Source: a virus | Virus record (IMG/VR): IMGVR_UViG_3300009509_000154 | Span: 1-31,580 of that record | Strand: one strand, 5' to 3' | Length of the DNA stretch: 31,580 nucleotides | In this document: positions 5,036-31,580 of the stretch, piece after piece | Layout: the number at the start of each line of letters is the position of its first letter | How positions within the stretch are numbered: position 1 is the first letter of the stretch | The notes under the pieces: model-generated | The model's input: only the letters and a program-made list of their open reading frames with translations | The model's database searches: none | Told to the model about the DNA's origin: nothing | Translations under genes and position numbers: made by a program

Positions 5036-5437
5036 ATGGCTAATAATCCAAAAAAACAGTATCGGTACAAAGACTTGGATATGTCATTCAAGCCGCATCC
5101 GGTTACTGGTGACATTATCAGGAAGTTCGACGCGGAAGCAATCAAGCGTTCCGTGAAACTACTTGTGCTTACAGAATTCTATGGACGATTGTTTGACCCA
5201 GAGAAAGCTTCCGGCACACGAAGCCTGCTGTTCGAAAATATTACACCTGCCACCGCTGGGCTTATCGAACAGGCCATCTTCAATGCGATTCGCAACTATG
5301 AGCCAAGGGCAGACATATCCGAAGTTACCGTGGTGGCAAAACCGGATGACAATCAGTATGAAGCCACGATTATTTTCAACATCCTGAACATACCAGAGCC
5401 TATCGAGGTGAGTATGGTGCTGGAGAGAACCAGATGA
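5036..5437 (+). CDS. 25: gp25-like baseplate wedge subunit
   Basis: A 133-residue protein of the gp25/GPW family (T4 gp25 has 132 aa), the wedge subunit that nucleates sheath polymerisation. Visible features are KDLDMSFKPHPVTGDI at the N-terminus, then AIKRSVKLLVLTEFYGRLFDP with SLLFENIT, the core of the family, and a final VEVSMVLERTR strand. I chose the ATG at 5036, since upstream codons overlap the PAAR gene. Its stop overlaps the start of the next gene by 4 bases (ATGA). Confidence 0.92.
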   Translation: MANNPKKQYRYKDLDMSFKPHPVTGDIIRKFDAEAIKRSVKLLVLTEFYGRLFDPEKASGTRSLLFENITPATAGLIEQAIFNAIRNYEPRADISEVTVVAKPDDNQYEATIIFNILNIPEPIEVSMVLERTR

Positions 5438-9472: not shown

Positions 9473-11286
9473 TGGCCAACTCCAAGCTGAGAGTCACAGA
9501 ACTTGATTTTAACAATATCAAGGAAAACCTGAAGAACTACCTGAGAGACCGTCCAGAGTTTACGGACTATGACTTTGAAGGCGCGGCATTAACCGTCCTG
9601 TTGGATGTATTGGCATACAATACTCACTACAATGCGTACTACCTGAATGTGGTGGGCAATGAGGCTTTCTTGGATTCGGCTCAGTTGAGAGAATCGGTAA
9701 TATCACGCGCAAAGGAAATCGGATATACGCCTCGTTCATGGATTGCGGCCACTGCGTTGTTGGACATAAAAGCCGTACCAAAGAAACCATTGAATCCACC
9801 ATATGACACATTGTCATTTGTGGTACTGGACAAGAACAAACCATTCACTACGGTAATAGACGGAAACACCTATACCTTTGTTACCCAAGCCAGTCATGTT
9901 TTGACAAAAAACTTGGACGGTGACTTTGTTGGTACCAATATTCCGGTTAAACAAGGCAAGTATCTGGAATTCCGTTATGTAGTTGACAAGACCAATCCGG
10001 AACAGAAGTTCATTATCCCGAACGAACGATGCGATACCACCACACTGAGGGTGTTGGTACAGACATCCGCTACTGACACCACCACCGAAGCATTCTCGCC
10101 AGTGATTGACTTTAACGAGTTGACCCCAGACACCAACTGTTACTGGATACACGAAATTGCCAATGGTCTCTATGAAGTACAGTTTGGTGATGGTGTGTTG
10201 GGCAAAGCCTTGGCCGACGGCAATATTATCAAGCTGTCATATATGGTGACCGAAGGTGATGTGGCCAACAAAGCCAGTGAGTTCACCTATACATCGTCCA
10301 TCCAAGGATTGACCAATATCCAAGTGACTACCGTACAGGCCGCATATGGCGGGGCAGAAATTGAGTCTATTGATTCTATCAAGTTCACTGCTCCAAAGTA
10401 TTACCAAGCACAGAACCGTGCGGTAACTCCGGAAGACTATGAAGTTATCGTAAAAAGAGAGTTCCCGAATATTGATTCCGTTACTGTATGGGGCGGTGAA
10501 GATAACGACCCGCCTATTTACGGTAAAGTGTTTATTTCGGTAAAACCAGCCGATGGGTTTACTTTGACCCTTGGCCTGAAGCAATTGATTGCCGACGAAA
10601 TCCTGAGAGAATTCAATGTGGTTACTATTTTGCCTGAAGTAGTAGACCCAGAATATTTGTTTGTCATCATGGATACCGAAGTGCGCTTTGATTCCTTCCT
10701 GACCAACAAGACCGCAGAAGATATCAGGGCAGAAGTGGTAACAACCATTGACACCTATAACGAAGACCGTTTGGGCAAGTTCGATAAGAAGTTAAGATTT
10801 TCCCAGTTGGTGGCAGACATTGACGATACAGACCAGTCTATCCTGAACAACCAGACACACCTGTTTTTACAAAAAAGATTCATTCCGGCTATCAACTTGC
10901 CGTTTGATTACACACTGAGATTCCAAAACGAACTGGAACCGAACTCATTGGCTATGGATGGGTTTACCATTAACGATAGCATTGTTGCCGAAGCAGGAAC
11001 CACCTATTTCATGAAAGACAATGGTGGTGGCATAATGGTGATTTATCGCAACCAACCAATCAGTGGCATTAGCGTAGTGGGCAACATTGGAACCGTGGAC
11101 TATGTAACCGGCAAAGTGTTTATCAGCCAGTTCAAGCCAGCTACCATTACAGACAGTTTTGGTGAACTGAGAATGACCGCCACGCCATTGGAAGAAGACA
11201 TATCTGTATTGAGAAACACCATTGTTGAAATTGACATGGATGAATTGGTGGTAACCGTTGTTCCTGAATACAGAGCCGAAATCTGA
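9472..11286 (+). CDS. 6: gp6-like baseplate wedge subunit (J-like)
   Basis: A 604-residue homologue of T4 gp6 (660 aa), the wedge protein that forms the ring around the hub and bridges neighbouring wedges. The N-terminal block FNNIKENLKNYLRDRPEFTDYDFEGAALTVLLDVLAYNTHYNAYY matches T4 gp6 in order and spacing, and AFLDSAQLRESVISRAKEIGYTPRS matches the next conserved block. QFGDGVLGKALADGN (about 226-240) and NRAVTPEDYEVIVKREFPNI (about 306-325) are the Mu gp47/baseplate J features. The start overlaps the previous stop and its stop overlaps the next ATG. Confidence 0.93.
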   Translation: MANSKLRVTELDFNNIKENLKNYLRDRPEFTDYDFEGAALTVLLDVLAYNTHYNAYYLNVVGNEAFLDSAQLRESVISRAKEIGYTPRSWIAATALLDIKAVPKKPLNPPYDTLSFVVLDKNKPFTTVIDGNTYTFVTQASHVLTKNLDGDFVGTNIPVKQGKYLEFRYVVDKTNPEQKFIIPNERCDTTTLRVLVQTSATDTTTEAFSPVIDFNELTPDTNCYWIHEIANGLYEVQFGDGVLGKALADGNIIKLSYMVTEGDVANKASEFTYTSSIQGLTNIQVTTVQAAYGGAEIESIDSIKFTAPKYYQAQNRAVTPEDYEVIVKREFPNIDSVTVWGGEDNDPPIYGKVFISVKPADGFTLTLGLKQLIADEILREFNVVTILPEVVDPEYLFVIMDTEVRFDSFLTNKTAEDIRAEVVTTIDTYNEDRLGKFDKKLRFSQLVADIDDTDQSILNNQTHLFLQKRFIPAINLPFDYTLRFQNELEPNSLAMDGFTINDSIVAEAGTTYFMKDNGGGIMVIYRNQPISGISVVGNIGTVDYVTGKVFISQFKPATITDSFGELRMTATPLEEDISVLRNTIVEIDMDELVVTVVPEYRAEI

Positions 11287-12206
11287 TGAAGACCTTTAAG
11301 CAATTCAAATCAGAATTGTGTGAGGGTATTAGTGATGTCTTGTATCACAGCACATATGGTGAACGAGCGGCCAATATATTGAGAACCAACCGTTTTGTGT
11401 TGTCGGTTGCGGTTGATAGTGCATCCGAATTGTCTCTATCGAGCAATAGGAAAAAACTAAAATTCTTTTTCCTGTCTACTTCACGAAGCAAGACCGGCGC
11501 GTTCCAGCAATCCATGGAGTTTGCTTCCGAGGCAACGACATTTGTTCTTGACGGAAGAAAGCTGGCCAGTAACCTGTCCGGTAGTCCAATTGACTATTTC
11601 AAAGGAACGCGGGAAACCAAATCAGCCGAAGCAGAAGACAGGATTTATTCGGATAAACCGGAAATCAATAATGCGGCCAAATACATAAAAGAAATACACA
11701 TAAGAGCAAACACTGCTACAAAAAATAATAAAAATCTGGCAACCATAGCGCGCATTGCAAAAGAAAAGAACATCCCGTTGTACCTGTATACGGACGGCAA
11801 GGATTTTGTTGTCCAGAATAAATCAAAAGCCATAACCGACCATGACAAGATTGTGGCCACACTTGATAGCAAAGAGAAAGAGCCTCCTGTAGCCAGCTAT
11901 GAAGTGTGGACACTGGATATCATGATGGCTTATCTACTGTCTGCATCGGCAAACAAGAAAGAATTCATGTCCAAAGTGAACAAACTAAATAAAACACAAA
12001 AAGAAAACATGATAACCAGATTCAAGTACATAACTAAAAATCCAGAAAACTTTGTTTATATGCTTATCAACGGATTCCATAGCAATAAAGAATCCACAGA
12101 GAAAGGCCGCGAATATGTCAATGGATTGGTGCAATACATGGAAAAGAACAAATTGAAGAACATGGAAGAATTGTCTACCAATCTACTAAAAAAAATAAAG
12201 GGCTAA
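11286..12206 (+). CDS. ADP-ribosyltransferase-like injected protein, paralogue A
   Basis: A 306-residue protein opening with MKTFKQFKSELCEG: capsid-targeting motif plus a possible protease site LCE|G (11-14). The next 130 residues look like an ADP-ribosyltransferase fold: VLYHST with His21, NILRTNRFVLS (30-40), FFLSTSRS with Ser-Thr-Ser at 64-66, TFVLDGRKL and AEAEDRIYS with Glu115 and Glu117 in the ExE position, then AAKYIKEIHI. These match, in order, the H/R, STS and ExE motifs of the ART superfamily. The second half is helical and ends in GREYVNGLVQYMEKNKLKN, shared with paralogues B and C. T4 Alt, an injected ART, is the precedent. Target unknown. Confidence 0.65.
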   Translation: MKTFKQFKSELCEGISDVLYHSTYGERAANILRTNRFVLSVAVDSASELSLSSNRKKLKFFFLSTSRSKTGAFQQSMEFASEATTFVLDGRKLASNLSGSPIDYFKGTRETKSAEAEDRIYSDKPEINNAAKYIKEIHIRANTATKNNKNLATIARIAKEKNIPLYLYTDGKDFVVQNKSKAITDHDKIVATLDSKEKEPPVASYEVWTLDIMMAYLLSASANKKEFMSKVNKLNKTQKENMITRFKYITKNPENFVYMLINGFHSNKESTEKGREYVNGLVQYMEKNKLKNMEELSTNLLKKIKG

Positions 12207-12207
12207 C

Positions 12208-12546
12208 ATGAAAACATTCGGACAACTAAGAAAAGAACTGGCGGAAGCAAAACAGGAAACATTGACCAAACCAATATACCTGAACAGTAGCAGCAACAGC
12301 AATCGTGGTTACGGTGTAGCCATTGGTACTCGTTCAAGCAGCAATGACTACAGTTCTGAATTGGTAGTGGTTACTAACGCCAAACTGGATGCGTCCAAGA
12401 AAAAGATTGTTTCCGGTATCGTGTCTGGCGTATATGACACAATGGGCGATAACTACGCTTACAGCAATGCGTCCAAGAGAGCAGACATGCTTGCGAGAGA
12501 CGCACAAAAGGCCGGTGTACCCCACGATTATGCAACCACAAAATAA
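12208..12546 (+). CDS. small putative injected protein with MKTFGQLRKELAEA N-terminus
   Basis: A 112-residue protein starting one base after paralogue A. MKTFGQLRKELAEA is the best match in the window to the T4 targeting-plus-cleavage pattern (cut expected after LAE, before A). The mature part would be about 99 residues, Ser/Asn-rich, with a short beta stretch YGVAIGTRSSSNDYSSELVVVTN and a C-terminal helix. No domain recognised. The 3' end overlaps paralogue B by 17 bases. Confidence 0.62.
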   Translation: MKTFGQLRKELAEAKQETLTKPIYLNSSSNSNRGYGVAIGTRSSSNDYSSELVVVTNAKLDASKKKIVSGIVSGVYDTMGDNYAYSNASKRADMLARDAQKAGVPHDYATTK

Positions 12547-13537
12547 TCAAAAAACATTCAAGCAGTTCAGGCAACAACTGTTCGAGGGTATCAGCCCTGT
12601 TCTGTACCACACCACATATGCCGCCAATGCAGCAAACATCTTGGACAAAGATAAGTTTGTTTTGTCTGTTGCAGTAAATCACCCGCGCGAAGAAGAAATA
12701 GCCAATTCTGGAAAAAGAGTGCGGCTGTTCTACCTGTCTACTTCAAGAAGCAAACTTGGCTCATATCAAGACACTGGTGGTGTGACTGGTGTTACCTTTG
12801 TATTGGATGGCAAGAAAATATCAAACAATTTTTCAGGAAAATCCATTGATTACTTTTCCGGTTCTGGCTCCGGTTCGGGCAACATATTTGACGGTGAACT
12901 GGAAGACCGGATTGTTTCGGATAAACCAGAAATAACACACGCCAGTAAGTACATCACCGAAGTTCATTTGCTTCTTGGTGAAAACTTGGTGCATAGTAGC
13001 GGAAGCGTATTGCCTGGGGTTAAACCAGACTTGTTTATTTTATTGAAAAACTTGGCCAAAAAAAGAAATATTCCGTTTTACATGTACACCAATCGCAAAC
13101 ATTTTTTGTTGCAAAACAAAAAAGAAGCGTATACCGGCATTGACATTGACCGATATTTCAACAATAAACCAGAGAAAACGACTTTCGATACATTGTTTGC
13201 GCCAGACAAGTTTTCGTTGATTTCACAATATGCCTTGGCGGTTTACCTGATGGTCAAGTCAAAAGACCGGAAAGAGCTTACCAAAAATATCAACAAGCTT
13301 GGCTCGGATGACAAAGATTCCGTAAAAAGAATGGTGTTCCCAAAAACAGGACATTCGAGCAAAACACGAGAGCGTATATCATCCATCATGAATGTGGCCA
13401 TACAGAATAATTCTGGTGCTAGGGATATTGGTCGTGAATATGTCAATGAGATTGTCCGCTATATGGAGAGAAACAAGTTCAGGTCTGCTACAGATTTGGT
13501 AGACCACTTGATACTGAAACACGGATTGTCCAAATGA
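12530..13537 (+). CDS. ADP-ribosyltransferase-like injected protein, paralogue B
   Basis: A 335-residue paralogue of the flanking ART-like proteins. I chose the ATG at 12530, inside the end of the previous gene, because an in-frame start further upstream would add 47 residues read out of frame from that gene. This gives MQPQNNQKTFKQFRQQLFEG, where the targeting motif is preceded by six extra residues; a start closer to KTF is not available. Motifs: VLYHTT with His27, YLSTSRS with Ser-Thr-Ser at 70-72, and ELEDRIVS with Glu123 and Glu125. A Gly-Ser-rich insert (GSGSGSG, about 111-117) lies just before the ExE motif. The C-terminus ends in GREYVNEIVRYMERNKFRS. Confidence 0.65.
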   Translation: MQPQNNQKTFKQFRQQLFEGISPVLYHTTYAANAANILDKDKFVLSVAVNHPREEEIANSGKRVRLFYLSTSRSKLGSYQDTGGVTGVTFVLDGKKISNNFSGKSIDYFSGSGSGSGNIFDGELEDRIVSDKPEITHASKYITEVHLLLGENLVHSSGSVLPGVKPDLFILLKNLAKKRNIPFYMYTNRKHFLLQNKKEAYTGIDIDRYFNNKPEKTTFDTLFAPDKFSLISQYALAVYLMVKSKDRKELTKNINKLGSDDKDSVKRMVFPKTGHSSKTRERISSIMNVAIQNNSGARDIGREYVNEIVRYMERNKFRSATDLVDHLILKHGLSK

Positions 13538-14535
13538 AGACTTTTAAGCGGTTCAAAACAGAATTGTATGAATCAGTAAGCGTAACGGTTTACCATGTTA
13601 CCAACATGTATCCGGCTATTAATATTCTTGAAAAAAACAAGTTTATATTGTCGGTTGCGACTGGTGTGGGTCGTGAAGAAACCTTGGTTCCAAAAACAAA
13701 AAAAACAAAACTGTTTTATTTGTCCACTTCAAGAAGCAAGACCGGCGCATTCCAGAGAGACTACAATATTTCAGGTTCGACTACATTTGTATTGGATGGT
13801 CGCAAGCTGGCTAATAACTATGCTTCCACTCCGGTAGAGTATTTTGGTAAAGACCGACCAGTATCGGAGCGTGAATCGGAAGACAGGATTTATTCGGATA
13901 AACCGGAAATCAATAACGCGGCCAAATACATAACAGAAATCCATATTGTGGTTGGTTCGTCTTTTGTGATGAACATCATGGGAAACCCAGCAAAATCAAA
14001 AGAAGATTTGTCTGCTTACTCGCGCATGTTGTCATTGGCTATCAAGCACAATATTCCAATTTATTTTTATGAAAAATTTAATGATTACTTGGTGCAAAAC
14101 AAAAAGAAAGCCATTGACATAAATAAAATAAAAGCAGGTATAGAAAAACTATCCCAGTCTGGCAATACTTTCGATATAGACAGTATTATTTCCAAGCGCA
14201 AAAACAGAGGCACATGGACAGACGATTTGGCGTTGTTACATGCCATGGTGTTTAGTGACAATCAACCAGACATGTTCAAGAAATTGGACAAGTTCGATAA
14301 TAAGGATTTTTTGAAAAAAGGATTTTTTGAATTCAAGAATACAAGAAGACCTGCCTTTAATGGTCATAAAGACTTTTACAATTTTGTGGTTGATACCATT
14401 CGCTCAAACATAAACTACGCGGAAGAAGGTCGCGAACAACTTAACCAAATAATCCGGTACATGGAAAAAAACAAAATACGCAGTGTTGGTGATTTGCATG
14501 GTTTGTTGTATAGCAGATACGGGATGGCATCATGA
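13534..14535 (+). CDS. ADP-ribosyltransferase-like injected protein, paralogue C
   Basis: A 333-residue third paralogue, overlapping B by 4 bases. The N-terminus is MKTFKRFKTELYES, with a possible cut after LYE. Motifs: VYHVT with His21, FYLSTSRS with Ser-Thr-Ser at 64-66, TTFVLDGRKL, RESEDRIYS with Glu114 and Glu116, and AAKYITEIHI. Identity to paralogue A is highest between FYLSTSRSKTGAFQ and KYITEIHI, while the later helical part diverges. Keeping all three motif sets in three copies argues that each is functional. The reaction is inferred from fold motifs only. Confidence 0.65.
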   Translation: MKTFKRFKTELYESVSVTVYHVTNMYPAINILEKNKFILSVATGVGREETLVPKTKKTKLFYLSTSRSKTGAFQRDYNISGSTTFVLDGRKLANNYASTPVEYFGKDRPVSERESEDRIYSDKPEINNAAKYITEIHIVVGSSFVMNIMGNPAKSKEDLSAYSRMLSLAIKHNIPIYFYEKFNDYLVQNKKKAIDINKIKAGIEKLSQSGNTFDIDSIISKRKNRGTWTDDLALLHAMVFSDNQPDMFKKLDKFDNKDFLKKGFFEFKNTRRPAFNGHKDFYNFVVDTIRSNINYAEEGREQLNQIIRYMEKNKIRSVGDLHGLLYSRYGMAS

Positions 14536-29968: not shown

Positions 29969-30703
29969 ATGGGTTTACCAGTTATAGATACACCACGATA
30001 TACATTGAAAATGCCATCAACAAAAGAGGAAATTTCATACAGGCCGTTTTTGGTCAAGGAAGAAAAAATCCTGTTGTTGGCACTGGAAGGCAAAGACGAA
30101 AATCAAATGTTTCTCGCGATTTGCGATATCGTTAGAAACTGTACTTTCGGAAAAGTATCGCCAGAAGAATTGGCAACCTTTGATTTGGAGTATATTTTCA
30201 CCCAAATCCGAGCACGAAGCGTTAGTGAGATTTCCACACTGTCGTTCCGATGCAAACACAAGGTACCCGTGGAGGGACAGGAAGAACCACAGGAATGTGG
30301 CGAAGTCATCAAGGTAGATGTTGATTTGACAAAGTTAAAAGTGGCAACACCAGACGGCCACAACCGAAAGATTATGATAACCGACACGATAGGAATGATG
30401 ATGAGATATCCATCGTTTTCTATCATTAAAAAAATCAAAGAGGATGGTGGGGAAAATAACCTTTCTACGATTCTTTCTTGTATTGACTCTGTGTTCGATG
30501 GCGATGTTGTTAATACAAGAAATGATTTTACGGAAAAGGAACTTGAAACTTTTATTGAGCAGTTGCCAAGAAGTGTACTTGTTAGCATCAAGGAATTTTT
30601 TGACACCATGCCAACAATGAAAGAAGTTGTCGAAATGACTTGCCCCAAATGTGGAAACAAGGACAAGATAACCCTAGAGGGCATGACCGATTTTTTTACC
30701 TGA
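29969..30703 (+). CDS. 26: gp26-like baseplate hub assembly protein, 0-frame product
   Basis: A 244-residue protein of the T4 baseplate gp26 family (PF12322 type). GGAG lies six bases before the ATG at 29969. The start LPVIDTPRYTLKMPSTKEEISYRPFLVKEEKILLLALEG is the family mark. Four Cys (Cys95, Cys110, Cys225, Cys228; the last two in CPKCGNKD) suggest two half zinc sites. The gene ends GMTDFFT with codons GAT TTT TTT ACC TGA, where the seven T (30691-30697) form an in-phase slippery heptamer leading to the -1 frame described next. T4 gp26 has no defined place in the mature baseplate and may act in assembly. Confidence 0.85.
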   Translation: MGLPVIDTPRYTLKMPSTKEEISYRPFLVKEEKILLLALEGKDENQMFLAICDIVRNCTFGKVSPEELATFDLEYIFTQIRARSVSEISTLSFRCKHKVPVEGQEEPQECGEVIKVDVDLTKLKVATPDGHNRKIMITDTIGMMMRYPSFSIIKKIKEDGGENNLSTILSCIDSVFDGDVVNTRNDFTEKELETFIEQLPRSVLVSIKEFFDTMPTMKEVVEMTCPKCGNKDKITLEGMTDFFT

Positions 30704-30888
30704 GCCTTTCCCACAATTCATTAGAGAATTATTTGAAAATTGAATTCGGGCTTGTACAACACCATAAGTACAACAGAACCGAAATTGAACAAATGATTCC
30801 ATGGGAAAGGGACATATATGTTGGTATGCTACTCAATTTCTTGAAAGAAGAAAATGAGCGCAAAAGGCAAAAGCAACAAAACCATTGA
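30697..30888 (+). CDS. -1 frameshift extension of gp26 (gp51-like)
   Basis: This frame has no ATG of its own outside gp26 and no ribosome-binding site; weak candidates are CTG at 30700 and TTG at 30733. A -1 slip on T TTT TTT at 30691-30697 joins gp26 (243 residues) to 63 more, giving a 306-residue fusion. The extension has SLENYLKIEFGLVQHHKYN and EIEQMIPWERDIYVGMLLNF, a pattern (LxxHxKxxxxEIExMxPWERDIY) I associate with the small hub proteins annotated as gp51 in T4-like phages and with C-terminal parts of tail assembly chaperones. It overlaps the next gene by 35 bases. Sure of the coding nature, less of the name. Confidence 0.65.
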   Translation, partial: YLSLSHNSLENYLKIEFGLVQHHKYNRTEIEQMIPWERDIYVGMLLNFLKEENERKRQKQQNH

Positions 30889-31267
30889 TAAGTTCGAAGA
30901 GAAAGGTTCAGTATTAATCCGTTATGCAAACATGTCGGCCAAAATAGTGGCTGGCGTAACTCGTCCGTTTGTTATTCCGCTATTCGATATGTTGGAACAT
31001 GGTCGGGTGGCGCAACGAGCGGCATTGTGGGCTGGCATTTATTTGTCGATTTGGTGTATCCGTTGGGCGTTTGATTTTGCGGAAACATCACCACGAACTG
31101 GTACCGAAGTTGCGGCAATCATTGCTGCCATTTTGGCACCAATATCAATGCTGACTGGTGCCCTGATGAAGTTTGGTGAAACCATATATGAAGTTGAGGC
31201 GACAAGAAATCCGTCACGCACACCAACAGCCGAAGAACAAACAATGGTAGATAAAAACAATGGCTGA
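30854..31267 (+). CDS. two-TM membrane protein, holin-like or tail-associated
   Basis: A 137-residue protein. Hydrophobic segments at about 55-75 (AALWAGIYLSIWCIRWAFDF) and 84-107 (VAAIIAAILAPISMLTGALM) are separated by a short loop. The basic N-terminus and the charged C-terminus would both lie inside. A holin is possible, but the place between the gp26 frameshift gene and a probable tape measure gene suggests a tail part that reaches the membrane. The start overlaps the previous frame, and its stop overlaps the next ATG by 8 bases. Confidence 0.6.
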   Translation: MSAKGKSNKTIDKFEEKGSVLIRYANMSAKIVAGVTRPFVIPLFDMLEHGRVAQRAALWAGIYLSIWCIRWAFDFAETSPRTGTEVAAIIAAILAPISMLTGALMKFGETIYEVEATRNPSRTPTAEEQTMVDKNNG

Positions 31268-31580
31268 GAATAAGACACCAACCCCACCACCGGCAAAAGA
31301 ACCAGGCCGTGGTGCATTACAGGCCATATCCAAGAATATTGGTCGTGGGTTGTCGAATGCATTGGATTCTGTGCCCATTGTTGGTCAATTAAAAAACACC
31401 GAACTGAAAGATTTGCCGAAACAGTTGGCCATGCAGCACAAAGAGCTTGGTGGATTCGCGCGAAGCTTTGGTTCGTTCTATTCCAGCGTTAAGCAAGACA
31501 TGGCCGGTAACCAGAAAAGCCGAGACATGCTGGCCGATGACATGGAAGACATGCGCGACGGTCAATCAAAAGGATTTGAA
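31260..31580 (+). CDS. start of a probable tail tape measure protein (partial)
   Basis: 107 residues are visible; the gene runs off the window. A proline-rich start (TPTPPPAKEPGRG) is followed by helices (LQAISKNIGRGLSNALDSVP, then KELGGFARSFGSFYSSVKQD and DMLADDMEDMRDGQS). Position after gp54, gp26 and its extension is where T4-like marine phages carry the long tape measure (gp29-type) gene. The call depends on position and helical character only. Confidence 0.5.
   Translation, partial: MAENKTPTPPPAKEPGRGALQAISKNIGRGLSNALDSVPIVGQLKNTELKDLPKQLAMQHKELGGFARSFGSFYSSVKQDMAGNQKSRDMLADDMEDMRDGQSKGFE

Follow-up and report, generated by a model that had tools for sequence, protein, structure and literature searches.

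Does a gp26 homologue in the virus record IMGVR_UViG_3300009509_000154 give rise to one protein or to two? The gene ends close to a run of seven T, and at this run a second frame continues in the -1 phase. The window analysed here is the whole record of 31,580 nucleotides, which ends within the tape measure gene. We consider it very probable that the gene yields two chaperone forms through a -1 frameshift at U_UUU_UUU, a device familiar from many other phages. The features of the locus are listed in Table 1.

Table 1. Features at the 3' end of gp26 and downstream in the window
Feature	Position	Strand	Description and evidence
gp26 homologue, predicted short chaperone form (TAC-N)	29969..30703	+	0 frame, 244 aa; PF12322 and phrog_150 matches, AlphaFold model
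AGAGGG, Shine-Dalgarno-like, probable stimulator	30676..30681	+	9 bases 5' of heptamer; pairing prediction and synonymous shuffles
Slippery heptamer T_TTT_TTT	30691..30697	+	X_XXY_YYZ phase of 0 frame; in-phase T_TTT_TTN in relatives
0-frame stop TGA	30701..30703	+	Sequence; 3 bases past heptamer
-1 frame extension, gp51-like	30697..30888	+	63 aa and stop; phrog_634 match, -1 frame purifying selection, three predicted helices
137-aa ORF between chaperone and tape measure genes	30854-31267		Sequence
Tape measure gene, 5' part	31260..31580	+	Incomplete in the window; 622 aa in contig L001, tape measure family matches

Reading frames and protein families at the locus

The 3' end of gp26 reads GAT TTT TTT ACC TGA (30689-30703), with the seven T in phase as originally predicted. 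The -1 frame from 30697 translates as YLSLSHNSLENYLK...EIEQMIPWERDIYVG..., with 63 residues and a stop at 30886-30888. The two frames overlap at 30697-30703, and joining the extension to gp26 gives a predicted long form (TAC-NC) of 306 aa. About 90 bases of open -1 frame precede the slip site, a stretch that includes TTG 30640 and ATG 30649; no Shine-Dalgarno sequence was seen before either codon in the window. The same bases are present at the slip site of contig L001, which matches the gp26 of the window to 100% and extends further in the 3' direction. The rarity of the heptamer was discarded as an argument: the window contains 37 copies of TTTTTTT where 31 +/- 7.5 are expected, and because T runs are this common the heptamer alone is no evidence. 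It is the position of the heptamer, its phase and its conservation that go beyond chance.

The gp26 protein matched PF12322 (T4_baseplate / gp26 family) with an E-value of 3e-60 and a score of 203.9 bits, compared to a Pfam gathering cut-off of 24.5, and phrog_150 with an E-value of 9e-63 in the PHROGs profile search. Its AlphaFold model is good (mean pLDDT 89) and similar to the models of other gp26 proteins. The 63 residues of the -1 frame, to which a protein character was originally ascribed, matched positions 58-118 of the 121 in phrog_634 with an E-value of 7e-25; this is the gp51 family, annotated as 'baseplate hub assembly catalyst'. The frame is also under the selection described below. 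The extension matched 557 phage records at a cut-off of E up to 1 and is predicted to form three helices; no credible Pfam family was found for it.

The site had been placed just before a probable tape measure gene. An ORF with matches to tape measure families (best E = 4e-7) does begin downstream, at 31260 in the window, and reaches 622 aa in contig L001, but the 137-aa ORF comes between. Relevant to assignment as a TAC-N/TAC-NC pair are thus two overlapping frames upstream of the tape measure ORF, with this one ORF between, and homology to the established chaperone pair T4 gp26/gp51. The 137-aa ORF encodes a hydrophobic stretch and has no family match; small unnamed ORFs are located at the same position in Pelagibacter phage Mosig and Methylophilales phage Melnitz-3.

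Elsewhere in the window, the proteins from ORFs starting at 5434, 5850, 11286, 12208 and 13534 on the + strand open with MKTFxxFxxEL or a close form, which we take to resemble the N-terminal capsid-targeting sequence of the internal (injected) proteins of T4. These proteins may be packaged in the virion. Three tandem paralogous proteins (11286-12206, 12533-13537 and 13534-14535) share the pattern YHxTxxxxAxNIL...FxLSVA...STSRSKxG and gave no credible match in Pfam or PHROGs.

Conservation of the slip site and selection by frame

For the comparison with relatives, we collected loci through gp26 and, independently, through the -1 piece, neither query including the heptamer, and added cultured phages. 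This yielded 174 loci, of which 170 were readable and 120 remained as non-redundant once loci with over 90% similarity across the final 240 bases had been dropped. An in-phase T_TTT_TTN was present near the end of gp26 in 114 of these 120 relatives, a figure to which no probability is attached because the sequences are related. The last base of the heptamer was C in 75 loci, T in 34, A in 4 and G in 1, and the commonest spacing to the stop codon was the 3 bases seen in the window (90 of 120 relatives). The first Phe codon of the site was TTT in 114/114 loci; in the remainder of these genes the figure was about 71%. The preceding codon ended in T in 114/114 as compared to about 77% elsewhere, although these 114 loci were chosen for carrying the run and the unselected figure is 114/120. 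The six loci without T_TTT_TTN were from the T-even phage RB14, four Kuttervirus-type loci and Vibrio phage D510. The predicted slip site is retained in nearly all sampled relatives outside the T4-proper group.

The Kuttervirus-type loci (L061, L159, L163 and L164) and Vibrio phage D510 (L063) have a distant gp51-like -1 frame after gp26, and the slip site there is NTT TTC rather than T_TTT_TTN. In record L061 the gp51-like piece is unannotated, while in D510 an ATG overlaps the gp26 stop.

To count codon changes in each frame, we used 68 moderately similar pairs of loci. Upstream of the site, synonymous/nonsynonymous changes numbered 656/514 when read in the 0 frame, as compared to 50/1189 in the -1 frame, whereas downstream the corresponding counts were 149/901 and 651/380. 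Base variability by codon position switched frame in the same manner. Scans on very diverse alignments gave no usable pattern, and it was the narrower alignment that worked. Purifying selection moves from the 0 to the -1 frame at the slip site; upstream of this point the -1 frame is therefore not a gene, which is evidence against TTG 30640 or ATG 30649 starting a conserved protein. The claim that the extension has neither start codon nor ribosome-binding site of its own hence needs amendment: potential start codons exist, and what stands is that they have no Shine-Dalgarno sequence and lie in a stretch that is not under selection in this frame.

Between the upstream stop and 10 codons past the slip, ATG, GTG and TTG were all absent from the -1 frame in 62 of the 114 loci; another 30 had a start codon only past the slip, and 22 had one at or before the junction. 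The comparison with relatives proposed as a check on the original prediction thus recovered, across the 120 non-redundant loci, the same heptamer, phase and frame switch, mostly with no usable start.

Stimulation of slipping and alternative explanations

In 96% of the loci, positions -11/-10 are both G, as part of an AGG-type element. We predicted a pairing energy of -6.3 kcal/mol for AGAGGG in the window and, using a generic anti-Shine-Dalgarno sequence, a mean across loci of -5.45 kcal/mol as compared to -4.32 kcal/mol in synonymous shuffles. By this calculation the Shine-Dalgarno-like element is stronger than the protein sequence demands, and AGAGGG probably acts as a stimulator of slipping. 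RNA structure directly 3' of the site showed a modest excess across the set that tailed off within 60 bases; in the window, downstream structure did not differ significantly from shuffles, and a strong stimulator hairpin was not found. On sequence grounds, the locus would qualify as a programmed -1 frameshift by its conserved X_XXY_YYZ motif in 0-frame phase within the overlap and by the upstream element as predicted stimulator.

We suggest that a part of the ribosomes on gp26 back up one base at U_UUU_UUU, probably stimulated by the upstream element, bypass UGA and read 63 more codons. We infer that such slipping occurs, at a rate that would make the 306-aa protein presumably the rarer product next to the 244-aa protein, and that the two forms would divide the labour. 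Together they would act as tail assembly chaperone on the tape measure protein, whose gene follows shortly downstream. Following the general chaperone model as outlined in the phage Adele paper (PMC12846349), and by analogy with lambda G/GT, the short form would coat the tape measure protein and the gp51-like tail of the long form would recruit tube subunits.

The main competing explanation treats the gp51 piece as a small protein in its own right, initiated within gp26 or by coupled re-initiation at its stop codon. It can draw on the two potential start codons in the window, on the ATG that overlaps the gp26 stop in several relatives (e.g. Vibrio phage nt-1, Rhizobium phage RHph_Y68 and Vibrio phage D510) and on the annotation of gp51 as a gene of its own in deposited records. 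Against it stand the lack of selection on the -1 frame upstream of the site and of a canonical start in more than half of the loci; it leaves the invariant heptamer unexplained, and in T4-type gp51 a single protein contains both a gp26-like part and the extension. We regard a separate protein as improbable here, and some relatives, such as nt-1, might use coupled starts as well.

Even less likely is that RNA polymerase slips on the T run, so that the -1 frame is reached through a shortened or lengthened mRNA. Seven consecutive T in the window would permit this, but in 75 of the 114 relatives the run is just six T long before a C and the codon phase is unchanged, for which tandem tRNA slipping is the better fit, and the Shine-Dalgarno-like element would have no role. 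Finally, a sequencing error is conceivable since homopolymer runs are error-prone with some methods, and the frame break could also mark a decaying gene. These explanations were already refuted by the relatives and are hardly credible: the second contig has identical bases, and the break occurs at the same place in 114 non-redundant loci, cultured phages included, with both parts under selection.

Comparison with T4 gp26/gp51 and other chaperones

The original prediction also held that gp26 and the gp51-like part form a chaperone pair made by frameshifting, and this gains weight from the family matches, the tape measure gene downstream and the alignment of gp51 with the predicted fusion. In hhalign comparisons, T4-type gp51 (five sequences) aligned over almost its full length with the fusion of gp26 and the -1 extension (99.4%, E = 5e-22), its last 48 residues aligning with the extension, and over nearly its whole length with T4-type gp26 (99.3%); T4-type gp26 in turn matched in the fusion comparison with 99.6%. 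PHROGs places T4-type gp26 and gp51 in one family, phrog_150. Since gp51 aligns end to end with both the fusion and T4-type gp26, the two T4 genes would correspond to the short and long frameshift forms. T4 gp26 and gp51 are both given as hub assembly chaperones in PMC3004832. In Escherichia phage RB14 (L057, 3159-4585) the gp26 and gp51 genes are on opposite strands despite their near whole-length match, and in Klebsiella phage phi1_146015 (L176) they are in tandem on one strand.

In a tree, T4-type gp26 and gp51 were separated from the gp26 of other phages with support of 99/98; this separation would fit a duplication in the T-even line, with the caveat that the tree lacks a root and contains long branches. 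We lean towards the view that frameshifting is the older of the routes by which the T4 superfamily makes its chaperone pair and persists in Kyanoviridae, pelagiphages, rhizobial phages and some Straboviridae, and that T4 genes 26 and 51 stem from a T-even duplication, with gp51 now a direct fusion. If so, hundreds of deposited 'gp51' genes would be the tail of a frameshift product and not genes of their own. None of the records of putatively frameshifting phages that we inspected had the two frames joined in the annotation; the extension was annotated as a separate, often truncated gene, or omitted.

For T4-like phages, the literature already cites both chaperones made in two forms and poly-T signals. 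According to the PRFect paper (PMC10885494), which cites Vladimirov et al. 2022, some T4-like phages do without a frameshift and have one short gene alongside a longer, fused one, and the phage Adele paper (PMC12846349) cites the same work for poly-T signals at which TAC-N genes of such phages slip. Given these reports, the present site joins a known class. In the literature covered, with Vladimirov et al. 2022 represented by the papers citing it, we found no direct link of frameshifting to gp26 and gp51 of T4-like phages. Frameshifting would reduce a puzzling T4-like gene pair to one directly testable decoding event, account for the shortness and variable annotation of the cyanophage 'gp51', and hint at the origin of T4's essential gp51. 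The site also lends itself naturally to tests of how a Shine-Dalgarno element stimulates slipping on U_UUU_UUC/U in phages that infect marine bacteria.

The arrangement resembles lambda G/GT and HK97 in that a -1 slip is placed near the end of the first gene, 5' of the tape measure gene. The structural tie to HK97-type chaperones is no more than suggestive: when the gp26 model was searched against PDB folds, the HK97 chaperone 2ob9 had the top probability (0.63) with a non-significant E-value of 0.71 and TM scores of 0.20/0.43, and a sequence search of solved structures gave no match, HK97-type and lambda-type chaperones included. The frameshifted tail assembly chaperones of Vandenendeviridae differ in their signal, given as GTTTTT in the phage Adele paper, as compared to T_TTT_TTN here. 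In T4-type phages, gp26 is homologous to the gp26 of the window and gp51 to the predicted fusion over its full length, but two separate genes with no slip site take the place of the one gene and predicted frame shift in this virus.
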